NCBI GenBank assembly: GCA_000827205.1
Contig: KN832566.1
Span: 80,543-144,542 of the forward strand
Source: Plicaturopsis crispa FD-325 SS-3
Lineage: Eukaryota > Basidiomycota > Agaricomycetes > Amylocorticiales > Amylocorticiaceae
Direction of reading: 5' to 3'
Length of the DNA: 64,000 nucleotides
Part shown: positions 5,818-17,279 of the stretch, one piece after another
How the letters are laid out: each line of letters opens with the position of its first letter
Numbering within the stretch: position 1 is the first letter of the stretch
The notes under the pieces: generated by a model
Told to the model about the DNA's origin: nothing
The model's input: the letters and a program-made list of their open reading frames with translations, nothing else
Database searches by the model: none
Translations under genes and position numbers: made by a program

Positions 5818-8800
5818 CTACGCATTATACTGTGAAGCGAGGCTATACCATGCCGCGCTCAGATCCGGCACCGCGGGCGCAGCCATACCGTCTCCTTGAC
5901 CTTGGTATTGGTAGCCCTGGGATTGACCATAGGTCTCGAACCCAGCACCATAATAATATTGTCCCGATGAATCCATGGGTGGTATCGACGGCATAGAGGA
6001 GCCGGGGTATAATGGAACCTGACTCGCGTCGGGGTATTCTGGCATGACATGCGCTGCCGGATTCTGAGGGTACGAGGGAGGATAATTGAAAGTCTGGACG
6101 TGGCCATAGTCGTGCCAGGCTGTCAGAGAGGGATCGGGCTCATATTGACCGGGCATCTGAGTGGATGGCATGTGGGTGGGTATTGAGTTATGTATCGGAG
6201 GCGGAGGCGGCGAGTGCACGACGCTTGGCGAATGGTGGCTAGGCGGACTTAATCCAGTGTTCGGTGGTGAGGACGCGGGGGATGACGACGACTTGCGGGA
6301 CACCAGGCGCGCTGATCCTCCGAGGGCCGAAAACTCATCGGATTCGCTCTTGACACGCGACACGCTGGAAGACGTTAAGCGAGGCACTGGCTGTTGGCTC
6401 TCGCGGGCCCGGTCTTTGAGTCTCTGGAGAATGGGCTACAACGAATTATGAGAACCTTTGATAAGCGACGCAGAGAGCCCGCTCACCAGTATCTTTGCGG
6501 CATTAGGGTTCTCAGAGACCCTATTAAACAAGTTGTATGCAGAATCCAAATGTGATAACGCGGACGGCGCGATTGTCATCCGGGATTTCGTTGCAATTGA
6601 GCCAAGCACGATCTAGAAATCATTAACCCGTGTGTAGTCATATCAAGGGCAAATGCTTACCGCGCACGAGAAAACATGCGTGAAAAGGAACCACATGCGT
6701 TCAGTAAGTATTGGATATTGCGAATGCATGCTTTCAACGAGCCCAACACTAAAGAACAGTGAGCTATTGTAAAGGTGGAAAATCAAACCGGGGTACGTAC
6801 TATGAGCACGCTGTGGTGTATGCCGCTAGAACCGATTGAGCGTATTTATTGCCCAACGGATCCTCGGGATTCTCCTCGATCGCCCTTGCAAAAAATCCGC
6901 GATGCATGTAGAATATCGCTGCCCATGAATCAGCACACGTACGGTTGGTACTATGTTTACACGCAAACTTACTGATTTCCCGCATCGCCCAGGCAACATA
7001 TCGCTGCATAACGAGTTCTATTGGCGGCTGCTCTACCTGGGCATCAATGCCGACCTTGCTCCCACCAAAACCAGGAACCTGCAAGGAGGGCGGAATGTAA
7101 AATTCCTTTGTCTTCTTGTCGAGTTCAATGATCGTTTTATAAGGTAGTGGGCGTGCACCAAAGGCGCGGTCGTGTACTTCACTTTGACAAAGGGAGGCGA
7201 ATCGGTGTTTCCAGGCGAAATCTGTTCATGGCAATTGAGACGGTGAAAATAGGTCAACAGGAAGGACACGCACAGCTCATCTCGACTTCACCGCTCTCCT
7301 TTTTGACGGTGTCATATGCCATGGGTACGTCAACATGCATCATGCTGAACGACGGCGGCCTTCCGAATGTGAGGCTCTACAAAAGGTGCAACGATGAGGA
7401 GTCCGTTAATACGGCAGAGCATGGACGTGATTTACCTGCCACGAATCGTACGAGTATAGCTCCCAAAACACATGTCTGCGTCGCTGGGTTTCCTCGTCGT
7501 CGACTTTCCATCGTCCACTATCGCGGTCTGTAGGCATCGCATGTCAGCTTCCCCAAAGTTGTAGCGCGTAAGTGTGACTAACGGAGACCGATCTATGGAC
7601 AAGCGTCAGATCATTTCCCACTGAAAAATACGCCTGGTTTGACTCACACTCTGAGCAATCTTTACAGCGATCCCCATTATCACCCATCGCGGGCTATTGA
7701 TGTCCGCCAAGAACATAAAATGGCAAGTCAATACCTACGTCGACATGGCCGTATGTAGTTCAGTTCCTATCTCATGCGCAAAAATGAAAAAAGCGCTCAC
7801 GAGTGCTTGTATAGCGGTTATACTCTGCTCCTCCAGCACCGAGTCAAGCGACAAGGCGGCACGACCAAGCTGGTAGTACTGCATTGCCTCTTCTGAACGA
7901 GGCGGACTGTCATAATCGACCAGCGTCCCGGTTGCGAGGACCATATAGAGGACGGCAATCGTATGTGAGTCGACGGACTCCAGAGTAGGCGAAGCATCCT
8001 CGTTATAGATGCGATAGAGTATTCGCTGCTCGAACTCCGCCTCTGGTATTGGCATGTGTCTACCCCACAGGGCAAAGAGTTTGGTGATGCACGAATATAG
8101 GAGGGAGGAGGAATACTCACATAAATGCCGCTTGTCGATAATATATTTTGGCTTTGGCCTGGGCTACTGCGAAACTCGGGAGAAAGCCGAATACTGTTCC
8201 TCGCATGTCGTGGGCAGTCCTACTCGTGCTTGCGAACGGAAATGCGTGGCTTAGCCACGAGACATCATTTGCCACCGGAAAATCGGCGTCAGTGTTCTCG
8301 TCCTGCTCCTCTAGCGCCTCGTTCTGGAATATGTCATGAGTACGCCTTCAATGCTGCTGCCCAGTCACTGACCTGTAGTAAATACTGTGGGTAGTTAGTA
8401 AATTTCAACGTCAGAGAATACGAGGCGTGTCTCACCCATGAATTGGCAGTCGTCCCATAAAACGATGAACGGCCGCTTTCTGAAATAGATCTTGAATGAT
8501 TGAGTGAGAATGAAGTCACGGTTCCAAGGTGTCCCACACACTCACAAAGATCCTATGGCATCGGTGGCATCATCTGCCTCTGGTGCTGCTGGCTGTGGAG
8601 GGGGCGAAGCGCCTGTGCGCCCATCTCGCTCAAGTGGCCTCTTGATCTGTAATAATTCGTCGCTGAGAAGTGGGTGTCTGTCACGGGATAGCGACGACTG
8701 GGCTTGCGCCAGCCCGTCTTCCAGTTGCCTGACACGGTCGCATAGCTGAGCAATTTTCTCGTGGAGAACCTCTGTATTTGCGAGCACAAAACTTGGCAAA

Positions 8801-9342
8801 TCATGAGCAGCTAAACAGATGAAACGGCAAAACAGAAGCGACGTACCGGTTTCCTTTCCCTGTAGTGAGAGAACCTATTCGTTCAAAATCAAATCCCAAA
8901 ATCAAGGTGTCGGCTTGCTAGTGATTACCCACCCTCTGGGCATATTGCGGCGCAGCCCTACACCATAAGATGTCTGTTAATCAAATTAATCGCGCAAGAT
9001 ATAATGCAAGGGTCATGCCTTCTTCACACAATTGCTGGACAATCGGCGCGCAAGGTCACTCTGTGGCTCAAACTCTGCGTAACAAATGTGGACTCACCTA
9101 CAAGGAAAATTCCTAGAACATCTGTAGGGCGTTGATCAACTACATAGCCCAATTCCAAGCAGACTGGTATCGCGAACCTCAGCTTCAACCTACCAAAATG
9201 CCAAAATAAGCAGATGCGACGACCACGGAGTCAAGTAAGCCGACCTTCTGCACTCCGCGCACGATAGTGCTGTGTTTCTACGCTTGTTCCGAGCGGCAAG
9301 TGGCCCGGGATCCTCTTGATAGTCCAGCGACGACGAAAGCAT
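5818..9342 (-). CDS. Zn2Cys6 fungal transcription factor, copy 1
   Basis: This is a nuclear DNA-binding regulator. The start ATG at 9342 opens a short basic N-terminus and then the zinc cluster. The cluster has to be spliced from five exons: 9342-9245, 9189-9178, 9121-9098, 9034-9019 and 8957-8933. They join in frame to give all six cysteines with spacing C-x2-C-x6-C-x5-C-x2-C-x8-C. The fourth intron starts with GC rather than GT. A leucine-zipper-like coiled coil follows (LHEKIAQLCDRVRQLEDGL, about 8.75 kb), then the fungal-specific middle homology region (for example AVLYMVLATGTLVDYD, ALSLDSVLEEQSITAIQALV). A Ser/Pro/Tyr-rich tail ends at 5818. It is a clear paralogue of the gene at 13802-17279 on the same strand. 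Targets are unknown. Exons between the domains were not all resolved. Confidence 0.85.
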
Positions 9343-9824: not shown

Positions 9825-11336
9825 ATGGGCTCGGTAACAAATGCGGAGGAGTGGTCAGATTCCGACGATGAGGTCGAGGCGGAGGTGGAAACTTCAGTGC
9901 TGCTGGGCGTGCCCGACGGTCACGTCGATGCTGCGGCAGATATCAGCGATGCCGCCGTGTCGCGCATCGGTGGCCATCCTGTACGCCCAGGTCTTGTCTG
10001 TGTATCGCGTGTTCTGTGTAGTTTGACTCAGCGTATAAAAGGCATTTCTCCCATCATCGGAGCCCTCCATAACAACTTCACAATGTAAGATATGCTCGTA
10101 CCCAATGGAGCTCTTAGTGCAGATGTGGTGTCCGTTCGAGGACAGCCCCATGGACAGGGCGCTGTACATCTGGGGATGCTCCCGCGGATCGTGTCAGAAG
10201 AAGGACGGAAGGTGAGTAAGTGCGCGCACTTGTGTGTCATATGTTGCTAATCATTTCAATCTGTTGCAGCGTGCGCGCGTGGCGCGGGCTCAGATACAAC
10301 GAGACATACGCCGCAAAGCTGGAGAAAAAATTAGCGCGAAGGAGAGCACATGAAGCTGCGAAGGCTAAAGCAATCGCGGCTGAGCAAGAAAAAGCTGCCG
10401 CCAAAAAATCAAATCCTTTTTCCGTGAGTTTTCCCATTTATTGTGTCCACAATGCCGACAAGATCTCACAACTCTCAGCAGATGCAAAACAACGCCGCAC
10501 CGAACCCATTCGGGATAGGTTCCCAGATCTTCGGTGGCGCCGCAGCGCCTTCAGCACCCCTACCACAAGATTCATTACAAGATGACGGTTCTGATGATGA
10601 TCAAACCGACTCGGAAAGCGACACCGACTCCTCCGAGGAATCATTGTTAACCGCGATGGCTGCTACCACGCTCTCCGAGTCGCCCTGGGCCGCAGCACCT
10701 GCCTATCCGGCCATGTACCTTTCGACATCGTCCGAATACATTCCTCCACCACCGAAGGCACCCAAAATATCCGCGGCTGCCCAGGTAGCAGACGTCGATG
10801 GCCCTGCCGGCGCCGAGCTCTATGAAAACTCGCTCGATGTGGACGAGGTCTTCGAACGCTTCATAAAGCGTGTGGGGTACGAGGGTGCGCAGTGCGTCCG
10901 ATATGAACTCAAAGGCACGCCGCTGCCCTTTGCCTCCGACAAACTCTTTCAGGAGCTTTTCCCCCTTCCCCCCGCGCCACCGCTGCCTGTCACAAAGCCG
11001 GCCTTCAAAGTCACCCCGCCGGCCAAACGCGCCTATACACCCCCGGTACGGCCCTGTCCGTACTGCGGTGCTGCGCGGGTATTCGAGTGCCAGATCATGC
11101 CGAACCTCATCAACGTCCTGAAAACGGAAGAAAACAATGTGCGGAAGAAATTAACGGATGACGAGCGGCGAAAACTCGTGGAGAGCGAGTTGAAAGGTGG
11201 GGTAGACCGAAATGGGATGGAGTGGGGGACCTGCATGATTTTTTCTTGCGAACGGGACTGTTGTATGACCGATGATGGTAAAGAGAGTAAGGAATGTTGG
11301 CGAGAGGAGGTTGTACTTATTCAGTGGGACGATTGA
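9825..11336 (+). CDS. TSR4: Tsr4 / PDCD2-family ribosome assembly chaperone
   Basis: Tsr4 in yeast and PDCD2 in animals are dedicated chaperones that bind nascent ribosomal protein uS5 (Rps2) and support 40S maturation. The start at 9825 gives an acidic N-terminus and the motif SRIGGHP. After an intron the expected AFLPSSEPS, a zinc-binding C-x2-C (CKIC), MELLVQMWCPF and the CSRGSCQKKDG segment follow. After the next intron comes VRAWRGLRYN and an Ala/Lys helix. The large last exon holds an acidic linker and the PDCD2 C-terminal domain: a CPYCG zinc motif, FECQIMPNLINVL, WGTCMIFSCERDC, ending EEVVLIQWDD. All family landmarks are present and length is normal. It is divergent from transcription factor copy 1. 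Its stop lies only 82 bases from the stop of the convergent siroheme gene. Confidence 0.93.
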
Positions 11337-11418: not shown

Positions 11419-13326
11419 TCATAGATCATCCCAACCAGTCGAAACGCCTTCTCTAATTCTCCATCCTGCGCCACTAAGCCATCGTTCCACTCTGGATCTG
11501 TCCTTATCATCGTCATCGTCCTCGCCAAGAACGTCAACATCTCCCCCCTTCCACAGCGACAGAACAGCCCACCCGACGACGACCATTCCTGGCGGCCTTT
11601 GCTCCCCCATGCTCTCCAACGCAGCCAAAATGTTGCCTAGCGTACTCTCTAGTACTCGCTGATCAGGCATGCTGGCGCGCTCAATCACAGCAATCGGCGT
11701 ATGGGCAGGATACCGGACGCCACCTCTCTCACGGCCGCCACCATCTGCGCTGGTGAGAGCCTGGAGCACTTGCGCAAGCCGCGCAACACCCATGAGTATG
11801 AGCAGCGTCCGTCCGCGGTCGTAGCTAGGCAAGCGGACCTCCTTCCCGGCCCGGCCGACCCCCGTGCAGACGACGAATGATTCCGCGACGCCGCGCTGCG
11901 TAACGGGTATTCCCGCGAACATTGGGCCTGCGAGCGCAGACGATACGCCGGGGATGACGAGGGGCTCGTACCCGTGCGCACGGAAATAGAGCACCTCTTC
12001 GCCGGCCCGTCCGTAAACTATCGGGTCACCTTGCTTGAGCTAATAGACAAATTAGCAGTGTGAAGAAAAGAGACGAATCAATGAATGACATACGCGAACG
12101 ACAGTAAGACCCCGTTGAGCAGCCTCGATAGCAGCTTCCATCATCTCGGTCTGTGCGCCTTCAGCATTCCCAGGAAACTTCCGCGCAATGCGTACCTCGA
12201 CCGTCTTTGGGATGATAGCAAGCACGGCGGCAGGCACAAGCTTGTCGGAGAGCACGAGATCCGCGTGCTTGGTGAGCACAGTGTGTGTCGCAAGGGTAAG
12301 GAGAGATGGGTGTCCTGGACCAGACCCCACAAGGAGAATTTTTCCGTGACTCGGTGGAGTAACGGAGAGTGAGTGTCTTGAAGTAGCAATGTCGAGTTCG
12401 ACCGATGGGACCTTGGAAAAATAACCAGGTTCTGCCAATCCCCCTCCGCTCAAAATGCCCTTCATCTCTTCGTCTGTCATGGCGGACAGTTTTTCCAAGG
12501 GCCAATATTCGCTGACCTGGGCTACCCATTTCATGCGCCTCCGAGCGCTCTCGGTCGACGTCTCCGAAATCGTCCTGGATGGCACGGGTCGATTTGGGGT
12601 GGTCACGACCGTGTTGTCATCGTGTATCTCGTCCTCAGGAACGTCCGATGTACCACTGTCTGGTCCGACGATTTTTGCAAGGTCTCGCAACTGCGCGACC
12701 TTCTCCACGGCACCGCCGACTTCCTTCGGTAATCGTGCAACGATTTCACGCCGTACACGGCCAGCAAGTCTGCACCCTTTCCCGTTAGTAGTGACTCCCA
12801 CCTGCAATGGAGTACGCGACTCGGACGTGTCGGAAGTCGTGAAACGATGGGTAGCGGCAAATGTGAAGTCGCAGAGGTCCGGCATGTCGGTGGTATTGAC
12901 TGGAATGTTACGTGCGCGACAAGTCCGGTAGACGTGTTCCGCTGAGGCTCGCGTTCTGTGCTTGCCCACAGCACCAATTGTCGTGTCTGTTACACAGACA
13001 AGAGTGACATTTGTGGAGGCCTCGAGATAGGACTCCAAAAAATCGCGATCGTGCCCTAAGGATGTGGATGTGCCCGGGAGCGAATCCGTATCAACGATAG
13101 TTATTTCGTCGTGCTTAGCGCGCCATTTCAATTCATCGCAGGACTCTCCAATGCCTCCAGGGGCGAGTATGACGACCTCAGAGTCTGCTTCGAGCGCCGC
13201 GAAAGCACGAGAAGCGGCCAATGGTCCTGAACCTAGGATCAGCGTAGTTTTGTCCTGCATGCGGAAGGACAGCATTAAAGATGCCCCTCGCTGGGGTGGT
13301 GGAAAAACCGGTGCAACAGAGGCCAT
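11419..13326 (-). CDS. MET1: Siroheme synthesis enzyme: precorrin-2 dehydrogenase fused to uroporphyrinogen III methyltransferase
   Basis: It makes siroheme, the cofactor of sulfite and nitrite reductases. The N-terminal part has a Rossmann-type NAD site (TLILGSGPLAASRAF) as in the Met8/CysG dehydrogenase. The C-terminal part is the SAM-dependent uroporphyrinogen III methyltransferase, with ILLVGSGPGHPSLLTLAT, DLVLSDKLVP, the GDP-x-YGRAGEE loop, and VIPGVSSALAGPMFAGIPVTQRG. One intron (about 12040-12094) separates the two halves of the methyltransferase. The start at 13326 (MASVAPVF) is the first ATG after an in-frame stop. The domain order matches bacterial CysG, whereas yeast has separate Met8 and Met1. 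An acidic Asp run lies near the C-terminus. Whether the middle region has ferrochelatase activity cannot be judged here. Confidence 0.92.
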
Positions 13327-13801: not shown

Positions 13802-16800
13802 CTAGTTCATCGTGGTGAGCCCTGCAACAAAGTCATGCCAAGTGGTCTGCATATTTGCTTCTGGCGAGTGCGACTCCCGACGTTGTCCCTGTATGCTTTC
13901 CATCATCGGAGTGTACGCGTTGACGTTGCCATTCGAGCTCACAGCTTGGCCATAGTCATACACCGGGAAGTATTGGGGGAACACTTCCGAGTCGGCGACC
14001 ATGTCGGGACCCACGTTCACCTGGGGTAGCGGATGACGGTGCTCGTGATGCATGGGCTGTTCCTGCTGCTGGTAATGATACTGTGCAGCCTCCGGAGACA
14101 TGTACTGGGTGGGTACGCCAGAGAAGTTGTACATTGTCGGTGTGCCGTCCGGGTACGTCTCAGGGGACGACGATGGTGCCGGCATGCCCCGTTCAGGATT
14201 AGGAGTGGGCCCAAAGGTGCGCAGGTATTCGACGACACTCGGATGAACCGGATGTTGTTGCCCGTCGTAAGACGGGAGTGGTAGCGGCACAACGGGGTTC
14301 ATAGACGTTGGCGAGTGGTCGATGATAGCAGGTGGAGAGGGCGAGGTGTATTCCTTCTTGGCAACGAGACGAGTCTTGCCCCCCAAAGTCGACAATTCAT
14401 CGTCCTGGTCATCTGGCGTAAGAGGCTCTGGTGGGTACGCCGATCGAGCGCTAACCGGCGATTTGCCATTGCGGAACTCCGTAAGACTGTAATGTGCCTT
14501 TTCTTGAAGGCGAAGCATGATTGCCTATATGGACTCCTATAAGTTACTATGCACGCCTATGCACGGATGGTACTCACAAGGACTTTCTGTGCACGAAATC
14601 CAGGTGCCGCTTTGGAGAATAACTCACATGCTGAGTCTAGCTGAACCAGCGCCGACGGCGCTAAGCTCATCGATGGGCACCTGGTAACGATACTGCCCAA
14701 AACAATCTGGAGAGCATAATTGAGGATCAGATTATCAATGGTGTGGTGATAGACTTACAGCACACGAGAACATGTGTGTCCACAGAAACCACATTCGTTC
14801 GCTAGGTTCTTTGAGCTGGGCGTGCAAGTTGCGCATGAGTGCAATAAGCGACCCTGCGCTGCGGTATGCAGCGATCACGGACGTCCCGTACGGGCTACCA
14901 AGCGGATCCTTGGGGTGATCGCTCACTGCGCGCGCAAAGAAGCTCCGGTGAAGATAAAGTAGGTCTATAAATATTGATCGCGCTATGAGTAAAATGGTTA
15001 CTGTAACAGCTGATAGCTATACTCACTCATTTCTCGGAGGGCGAGAACGATGTGACGCTGGAGCGTTAGCGCAACACTCTCAGGGAATCCTCCAGGACGC
15101 GGCTGCGAGCTCCCAAATCCAGCAATTTGCAGGATCGGTGGGACGGGAAACAGTCGTACTTTTCGGTCGAGCTGAAGGATCGTTGTGTACGTTGGTGTCC
15201 GTGCGCCAAACGCCTGGTCGTGTACAAGTGTCATGCACTCGGATGTGAATTTGTGCTTCCATGCGTGGACTAGTTATTCGCACAGTGAGGTTATGATCAG
15301 AAACCCCCCAGAAAAGAACACGTACAACTTTGTTCATCCGAAGGCTCAGCAGGATGGGGCATTTTGCAATCCACATGAGCCAGAGAGAACGATGGTGGAC
15401 GACCAAAAGTGAGACACTGGGTTGAATAGAGGCATGAGGACGAAATCATGCTTTGCTTTCCCCTTTGGAACGCACCTGCCAAGAATCATAGGTGAACAAC
15501 TCCCAGAAAAGCTCCCGTCTCTTCTGAGTCTCGTCATCTTCTACTTTCCAGCGTCCACTATCGCGATCTGAACGGAGGGAACGCTCGAGTTAATATCCGA
15601 AGAAAGCAGGCAGCCTAGCAGCACTCAGAACTCACGGAGTCCGATCTACAAGGAATCTTTGTCAGGAGGTGGCTATACAGGTGACAATGAGGTTGAAGGC
15701 TCACACTCTGCGCCACCTTCACGGCAAGACCCATAATTGCCCACCTCGACCCAGAGCCTGTTCCATGGCGGTCCGCCAAGAAAAGGTAGAACGACATCAA
15801 GTACTGTGAATACCATATCGTCAAATGTCGGAGAAGTCGGGCTGGTAGAAAGACTCACGAGCGCCTGGACGGCATTGATAGTCGGTTCGTCAAATAAGGA
15901 GTCCCGGAAGAGTGCTGCGCGCGCGAGTTGATAGTACTTTTCCGCCTCAATTCCATACGATGTTTGGCGCTCGTCCATGAGGGTGCCGATTGCGAGAACC
16001 ATGAACATCAACGCCAATCGATGCGCGATTAGAGGGTCATCTGCGATGGGTGGTGCAGCCTGCGCAGCGTAAAATTGTGCATAGACCTCAGATGCGAACG
16101 CGTCAGGACTAATTGGGCTATACCTGTGTCGCCATTGACGTCAGCACATCTTCGTAAAGCTAGAAACTACGGCTACGTACATCCATGACGCACGATGATA
16201 GTATATGTCTCGCAAGTTTAGTGCCACCTCGGGCGACGGAAGGTACCAGTAAAGATTGGTAGTTCGGAGAGTCTCAAGATCGAGAGACGGGTGGTCTGGT
16301 GCAATGGGGAATGATGTACTCCGGCTGAGGACCTCAGGTGGTAGGATATCTTGAAGACTTGTTAGTCGTTCATCTGTTTCGTCCTCTTCTGGAAATTCAT
16401 TCTGGGAGCCGATGAGCGACAAGCCTAATCTCAAGTCCAAGAATGAATGAATACCTGTAGGAAATACTAGAAGTAGATGTGTAAGCAGTGCTTAGACAAG
16501 CTGAATAATAAACGTACCCATGAATTCGCGAAAGACCCAAAATATTTTGCACGACCTGTCATGCTGATAGATAAGGACCCAAACGAGTCGACGACGTCGG
16601 GGTTCGGGGGCTCTTCTGTGGGCGCGCTTGTAGTGGCATTTCGTGCTGAGGAGGCCTCCCGCTGCAGCGGGGCTTTGATGCGGAGTAATTCGTCGCTAAG
16701 AAGCGGGTGCCGTTCGGGCGTGATTTGCGAATGCGAACTTCGGAGCGCATCCTCCAGCTCTCGTACGCGAGTAGAAAGATTCGAGATGTGTTCGTGCAGC

Positions 16801-17279
16801 TCCTGTGTGGACGCGAGCACAAAACTGTGGAGAGAGTGAGTTGACTATGCCCCAAGAGCCCTGGATAGGTGATGATATTCACCGATTGCCCTGGCCGGTG
16901 GTGAGAGAGCCTACACGAGTCTTATTAGAGCTTCCAAGTTCTAGGTCCGCGTCAAATTCGATACTGACCATCAGGGCATATTTGACCACAGCCGCGCTTG
17001 ATGCAAGAGCCACAGGGTACAGACCTGTACTGATATTATTCCCGCCCACCACATCTATGTTGGACTGCATACGAACCGATCGCATTTCAGCTTCAACCTA
17101 AGACACCGATTAAAACATATTAGAAAAACAACTATGTGTTTCGCAGATCTCCCGATCTAAAACACTTGCCTTCTGCACTCCGCGCAGCTGAGGCGAGCAG
17201 CACCCTTGCGACGCTTTTTGGTGGCGCCCTCCACCAGGCCTGCGTTTTCGAGGCGCTTGAAGGAGTTCGGGGAGGACAT
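13802..17279 (-). CDS. Zn2Cys6 fungal transcription factor, copy 2
   Basis: Paralogue of the gene at 5818-9342 with the same domain order and length. The start at 17279 gives MSSPNSFKRLENAG, then a basic stretch and the zinc cluster. The cluster is built from three exons: 17279-17170, 17097-17077 (21 bases) and 17024-16969. Their sum shows six cysteines as C-x2-C-x6-C-x5-C-x2-C-x8-C (AEC, RRLKLK, VPCGSC, RGCGQICPDG). The first intron begins with GC (GCAAGT), so it is a GC-AG intron. Next come a coiled coil (LHEHISNLSTRVRELEDAL) and the shared HPLLSDELLRIKAPLQRE motif. The fungal-specific regulator domain follows (MVLAIGTLMDE, YYQLARAALFRDSLFDEPTI). The tail is rich in Pro, Tyr and His and ends at 13802. 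Targets are unknown. Confidence 0.87.

Follow-up and report, generated by a model that had tools for sequence, protein, structure and literature searches.

A zinc cluster divided among five predicted exons in a Zn2Cys6 regulator from an intron-dense gene family of Plicaturopsis crispa

The gene called copy 1, one of two sister genes in a 64,000-nucleotide stretch of Plicaturopsis crispa FD-325 SS-3 contig KN832566.1 (hereafter the window), very likely encodes a Zn2Cys6 (Gal4-type) regulator with a Fungal_trans domain, intact and of an ordinary kind; it belongs to an intron-dense family, and its cluster exons are most likely spliced constitutively. Joining five exons of copy 1 gives the Zn2Cys6 cluster SCAECRRLKLRCSRNFPCSNCVKKGCAAICPE with the reading frame intact, and 16 paralogues have a layout alike in kind. 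The full joined product of the pieces from 9342 to 8933 is MLSSSLDYQEDPGPLAARNKRRNTALSCAECRRLKLRCSRNFPCSNCVKKGCAAICPE. We consider this splicing model very probably right. The exons and introns of the cluster are as follows, in window coordinates, with L numbers denoting other loci of the same genome that are described below.

9245..9342, (-), exon 1: 98 nt; start codon, basic stretch, and cysteines 1 and 2 (CAEC)
9190..9244, (-), intron 1: 55 nt, GT-AG; position common to 15 of the 16 other family genes
9178..9189, (-), exon 2: 12-nt microexon, (R)LKL(R), without cysteine; a 13-nt counterpart in L062 and L063
9122..9177, (-), intron 2: 56 nt, GT-AG; 1 base off the L062/L063 position
9098..9121, (-), exon 3: 24-nt microexon; cysteines 3 and 4 (CSRNFPC)
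9035..9097, (-), intron 3: 63 nt, GT-AG; position equal to that of L051 and L053
9019..9034, (-), exon 4: 16-nt microexon; cysteine 5 (NCVKK)
8958..9018, (-), intron 4: 61 nt, GC-AG (GCATGA); 1 base off the L051-L054 position
8933..8957, (-), exon 5: 25-nt microexon; the extra and the last cysteine (GCAAICPE)

A sequence-only reading of this DNA had proposed the same five exons, separated by introns of 55, 56, 63 and 61 nt, and it is borne out both by the splice, which yields a Zn_clus domain, and by an aligner that returned the same junctions. Where that reading counted three microexons, four of the five pieces (12, 24, 16 and 25 nt) fall within the usual limit of 30 nt or less. It had also expected one or two cysteines on every exon, but exon 2 has none and encodes a basic R-L-K-L-R. 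Splicing does restore the cluster as anticipated, although with seven cysteines (C-x2-C-x6-C-x5-C-x2-C-x4-C-x3-C) rather than six at normal spacing. Zn2Cys6 clusters as a class are spaced C-x2-C-x6-C-x5..12-C-x2-C-x6..8-C, and copy 1 conforms as C-x2-C-x6-C-x5-C-x2-C-x8-C plus one extra cysteine. Alignment with HAP1 places the last copy 1 cysteine at ligand six and the extra cysteine opposite a valine. A TGA lies in frame directly before the ATG at 9342, so that exon 1 has no upstream extension unless through another junction.

The junctions were evaluated using a purpose-written splice-aware protein-to-DNA aligner that permits GT-AG or GC-AG introns at a penalty. Given a generic 37-residue cluster query and no junctions beforehand, the aligner picked exactly those listed above for copy 1, and with the copy 2 protein as query it returned identical cluster junctions, the alignment then running on through the gene. 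The copy 1 cluster scored 128.2, as compared with a mean of 10.4 (sd 6.4, maximum 31.6) for 300 dinucleotide shuffles. The window was also cut into 212 tiles covering both strands (700 nt, step 600, so that some genes may be divided between tiles); apart from copy 2, at 160.0, and copy 1, none of them scored above 43.0. The N-terminal 58 residues of spliced copy 1 match Pfam Zn_clus (PF00172) with 29.4 bits against a cut-off of 21. A permissive search can turn up tiny exons, and the microexons could be accidental matches, with the true gene beginning downstream and having no cluster. The distance of the copy 1 score from both the shuffles and the remaining tiles, together with paralogue junctions at the same or neighboring bases, leaves that reading with next to no probability.

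Three other models were rejected. An unspliced reading of the cluster scored 8.0 versus 128.2. A GT-only model for intron 4, in which GC donors were made prohibitive, dropped the score to 93.4 with the loss of three residues. An introner-like origin of introns 3 and 4 was likewise discarded, there being no second genomic copy of either; each found only itself when searched against its own genome, in a search that skips common words, and these single copies give no sign of recent copying. In splice-site strength, the GC donor of intron 4 lies at the 8th percentile, the GT donor of intron 1 at the 16th, and the acceptor of intron 6 at the 2nd of 224 predicted family introns, a yardstick that is itself aligner-predicted (copy 2 by hand) and in which 11 of the 224 are GC introns, some of them doubtful.

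The gene model beyond the cluster includes further microexons.

5818..9342, (-), copy 1 gene model: 20 exons, 822 residues, stop at 5818-5820
8847..8874, (-), exon 6: 28-nt microexon GSLTTGKGNR; size and place kept in 10 of the 17 family genes (L061 unreadable there)
8546..8791, (-), exon 7: begins with a likely dimerization stretch, VLHEKIAQLCDRVRQLED, a putative coiled coil
8373..8384, (-), exon 9: 12-nt microexon YLLQ; also 12 nt in copy 2, L050, L057, L058 and L060
7583..7592, (-), exon 13: 10-nt microexon IGL(H); 10 nt in 15 other family genes too

Over its first 627 residues copy 1 matches Zn_clus with 24.9 bits (cut-off 21), and a Fungal_trans domain (PF04082, 81.4 bits) occupies residues 262-416. 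All 19 predicted introns span 48-66 bases, a length at which the splicing machinery can recognize the introns themselves, such that tiny exons pose no special problem. We propose that copy 1 is transcribed and that intron definition most likely joins its cluster exons constitutively, giving a protein that would adopt a binuclear zinc-cluster fold, dimerize through the coiled coil that follows, and bind DNA.

The sister gene, copy 2, is located in the same window.

13802..17279, (-), copy 2: 16 exons, 870 residues; three cluster introns, the first with a GC donor
15636-15645, (-), the IGLH 10-nt exon of copy 2

The exon ends of copy 2 were placed by hand from splice signals; for the cluster, the aligner arrived at the same junctions on its own. 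Its GC-AG cluster intron (window 17098-17169) has the near-consensus donor GCAAGT. In a tree of 16 family proteins copies 1 and 2 are sisters (support 96/95), with 49.9% identity over 591 columns. The 12-nt and 24-nt exons are both missing from copy 2, and the more fragmented state of copy 1 reflects intron gain or loss after the two split. Between the two copies an ORF at window 11419-11994 (-) has a tetrapyrrole methylase domain (PF00590, 63.8 bits), and the reading upstream of it presumably resembles a siroheme synthase gene. Another ORF, at 10443-11336 (+), has a PDCD2 C-terminal domain (PF04194, 103.5 bits).

Comparison of copies 1 and 2 over 805 codons gave a pN of 0.384 and a pS of 0.801, showing that silent sites had come close to saturation while the protein was conserved. 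For the cluster, pN was 0.26 versus a pS of 0.47 with copy 2 and 0.19 versus 1.01 with L062, and pN was below pS in 15 of 15 cluster comparisons (L058, with a longer cluster, was left out). These values bear on whether copy 1 is degenerating and its cluster no longer splices properly. Copy 1 does have the most fragmented cluster of the 17, the low-ranking GC donor and intron 6 acceptor, and a serine in place of aspartate after cysteine 3, the sole case among the 17 family clusters. Nonetheless, 822 residues are open across 20 exons to the stop, every cysteine is kept, and pN lies below pS, albeit as a pairwise value that alone is no proof of present-day constraint on copy 1. We give decay very little probability, and an intact gene remains our preferred reading.

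The family was assembled by searching the genome with copy 2. The 60 matches, grouped by eye, correspond to copies 1 and 2 and to 18 further places, 17 of which were fetched; the 18th (C1:3300405) is L008/L012, with an uninterrupted cluster scoring 109.0. We define the family as 17 genes, namely 15 fetched loci with cluster scores of at least 130 (L049-L063) plus copies 1 and 2. Set aside were L064 and L065 (cluster scores 86.6 and 41.8), and C4:1613672 (L011, 105.6) was left out of the family count. There are at least 17 paralogues, and possibly more, since 68 of 84 candidates were scored in the copy 2 search. L061, which contains 816 N, was excluded from the tree and the density count and kept for cluster counts. 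L061 (C9:1157100-1161700) and L060 (C23:139900-144400) lie on different contigs and have near-identical clusters with the same cluster intron layout; the pair is a recent duplicate or a second haplotype.

Fragmentation of the zinc cluster is a property of the whole family. Each of the 17 genes has between two and five introns within the 111-nt cluster stretch (two in one gene, three in nine, four in six, and five in copy 1 alone), and each has at least one internal cluster exon of 30 nt or less, such exons making up 26 of 41 family-wide; these exon counts rest on full-length alignments. Uninterrupted clusters in L004, L006 and L008/L012 show that this is a trait of the family and not of every zinc cluster in this genome. 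Introns are concentrated in the cluster-coding stretch, a hot spot with 31 per kb as opposed to 6.8 per kb elsewhere in the 16 genes other than L061; it takes 55 of their 243 introns, with 615 codons compared. All 17 family clusters have the seventh cysteine, which lies five residues beyond cysteine 5, although the loci were gathered with family queries carrying it, which favors shared residues of this type.

All five copy 1 cluster junctions lie within one base of a junction in some paralogue. The junction within the CR|R codon falls at the same base in 16 of the 17 genes and is 3 bases off in L049. Counting cluster nucleotides, the copy 1 junction at 38 corresponds to 39 in L062 and L063, that at 62 is also found in L051 and L053, that at 78 corresponds to 79 in L051-L054, and that at 103 is present in 13 of the 17 genes, copy 1 among them. 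Several neighboring positions in the family are 1-4 bases apart (23/26, 38/39, 47/51, 58/62 and 75/77/78/79). One L052 intron lies 4 bases off the L051/L053 position, which may be a choice of the aligner. These near-coincidences raise intron sliding or parallel gain, and the closely spaced intron positions of the family are natural material for studies of gain, loss and sliding. Microexons also occur outside the cluster. The 12-nt YLLQ exon is found in 6 of 17 family genes (L061 being unreadable there), and the frame-breaking 10-nt IGLH exon of the Fungal_trans domain in 16 of 17; such broad sharing of the 10-nt exon argues for routine microexon inclusion.

We have computed the products of exon skipping in copy 1. 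The 12- and 24-nt exons preserve the frame while those of 16, 25 and 28 nt do not. Skipping the 12-nt exon leaves 818 residues and skipping the 24-nt exon leaves 814, and N-termini without exon 2 or without exon 3 matched no Pfam family, Zn_clus included, at E values up to 0.1. In this respect the sequence-only reading holds, in that it had predicted an intact frame and lost DNA binding for both. Among the 13 skipping patterns computed, six leave the frame intact, namely loss of exon 2, of exon 3 or of the two together, and of the blocks 2-6, 3-6 and 4-6; skipping exon 4, 5 or 6 alone leads to an early stop.

That reading went further and suggested a splice switch between active and inactive forms. 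With the 12- or 24-nt exon included, copy 1 would be a DNA-binding regulator; with it skipped, it would be an in-frame non-binder acting as a dominant-negative partner or in another role, comparable to Xlr2 of Trichoderma (PMC11121469). The frame-keeping skips and the accompanying loss of the Zn_clus match are compatible with such a switch, as are the weak donors of introns 1 and 4, on account of which inclusion may be inefficient. There are also precedents: Xlr2 itself, the codon-sized microexons of a Tuber gene family with alternative splicing, as cited in PMC4986451, and the 1,527 exon-skipping events, alongside 7,851 alternative splice sites, within coding regions in a second, junction-based analysis of Schizophyllum commune, according to PMC5034255. 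However, in the same report exon skipping makes up only 1% of coding-region events in the main analysis, and 64% of events are not frame-neutral (PMC5034255). In Xlr2 itself no reads joined exons 1 and 3 (PMC11121469), so that this precedent is not one of simple in-frame skipping. Cluster exon sizes also vary among the paralogues; the 12-nt exon has its 13-nt counterpart in L062 and L063 and none in copy 2, which is without the 24-nt exon as well. Frame-preserving lengths account for 11 of 41 internal cluster exons family-wide and 7 of the 26 no longer than 30 nt; multiples of three are at, or below, the chance frequency. The switch is thus unsupported by the varying layout, by frame-preserving lengths and by copy 2, and we regard it as improbable. 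Its extension, in which copy 1 is a basidiomycete microexon switch producing both the complete regulator and a partner that stays in frame but does not bind DNA, with paralogues differing in their switch points, strikes us as quite improbable. Constitutive joining of the cluster exons is still the reading that we favor.

Retention of introns was considered in the same way. If any one of introns 1-6 is retained singly, translation would end early, after 45-82 residues, in all six cases. The amount of active regulator could be set by inefficient splicing or retention, either at intron 1 or at the GC-AG intron 4 with its weak donor; intron retention is the form that alternative splicing usually takes in fungi. 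Retention is the commonest event in Schizophyllum commune, as described in PMC5034255, and has been described in a Zn2Cys6 gene (PMC8396895). Against this, any short intron tends to give an early stop when retained, and the copy 2 cluster also has a GC donor, one that is close to the consensus. Level control of this type is possible, if unlikely; under the constitutive model, occasional mis-splicing by retention of any of the first six introns would most likely just lower output. For wider context, 741 Cryptococcus genes are listed as alternatively spliced, exon skipping and intron retention included (PMC3990503).

The main value of these observations lies in the annotation of zinc-cluster regulators whose clusters are split. 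When the genome was searched in six frames for Zn_clus at E values up to 0.001, the 23 matches included none of the 17 family genes, and such regulators may consequently be recorded without a DNA-binding domain. Copy 1 was likewise not recovered when its own cluster was the query in an exon-by-exon genome search. As both searches miss it, copy 1 is overlooked by searches of raw DNA. Mis-annotated 5' regions of Zn2Cys6 genes are reported for Aspergillus (PMC8396895), with like errors in Trichoderma (PMC11121469). These mis-annotations, and microexons in basidiomycete gene families, are already described in the accounts given by PMC8396895 and PMC1184071.

Copy 1 can be compared with several known systems. 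The solved clusters of HAP1/CYP1, LEU3, PUT3, PPR1 and LAC9 have the same cysteine pattern and the same basic stretch between cysteines 2 and 3, and the matches of copy 1 to solved structures have modest E-values, the best being 1.9e-4. The alignment with HAP1 continues past the cluster towards the dimerization region, and the extra cysteine, five residues after cysteine 5, sets copy 1 apart from HAP1 with its valine. In Phanerochaete chrysosporium, likewise a basidiomycete, the P450 genes also combine small introns (45-55 bp) with microexons (2-10 residues) across a large gene family, as presented in PMC1184071. These P450s differ in being an enzyme family, and alternative splicing was observed for CYP63 (PMC1184071). 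A one-nucleotide exon is described in a Fusarium P450 (PMC12940212).

A close parallel in design is Xlr2 of Trichoderma virens, also a Zn2Cys6 and Fungal_trans protein whose zinc cluster is completed by a microexon, as described in PMC11121469. That exon is 20 nt long, encodes PCRRCE with two cysteines, is conserved in the genus, and is missed by most annotations; a frame-preserving length is usual for microexons, although the 20-nt Xlr2 exon itself does not have one (PMC11121469). Xlr2 is an ascomycete gene, regulated by glucose, with a single microexon in the account of PMC11121469, whereas copy 1 has four predicted microexons of 12, 24, 16 and 25 nt, all within the zinc cluster. Copy 1 also differs in that its fragmentation extends to an entire set of paralogues.
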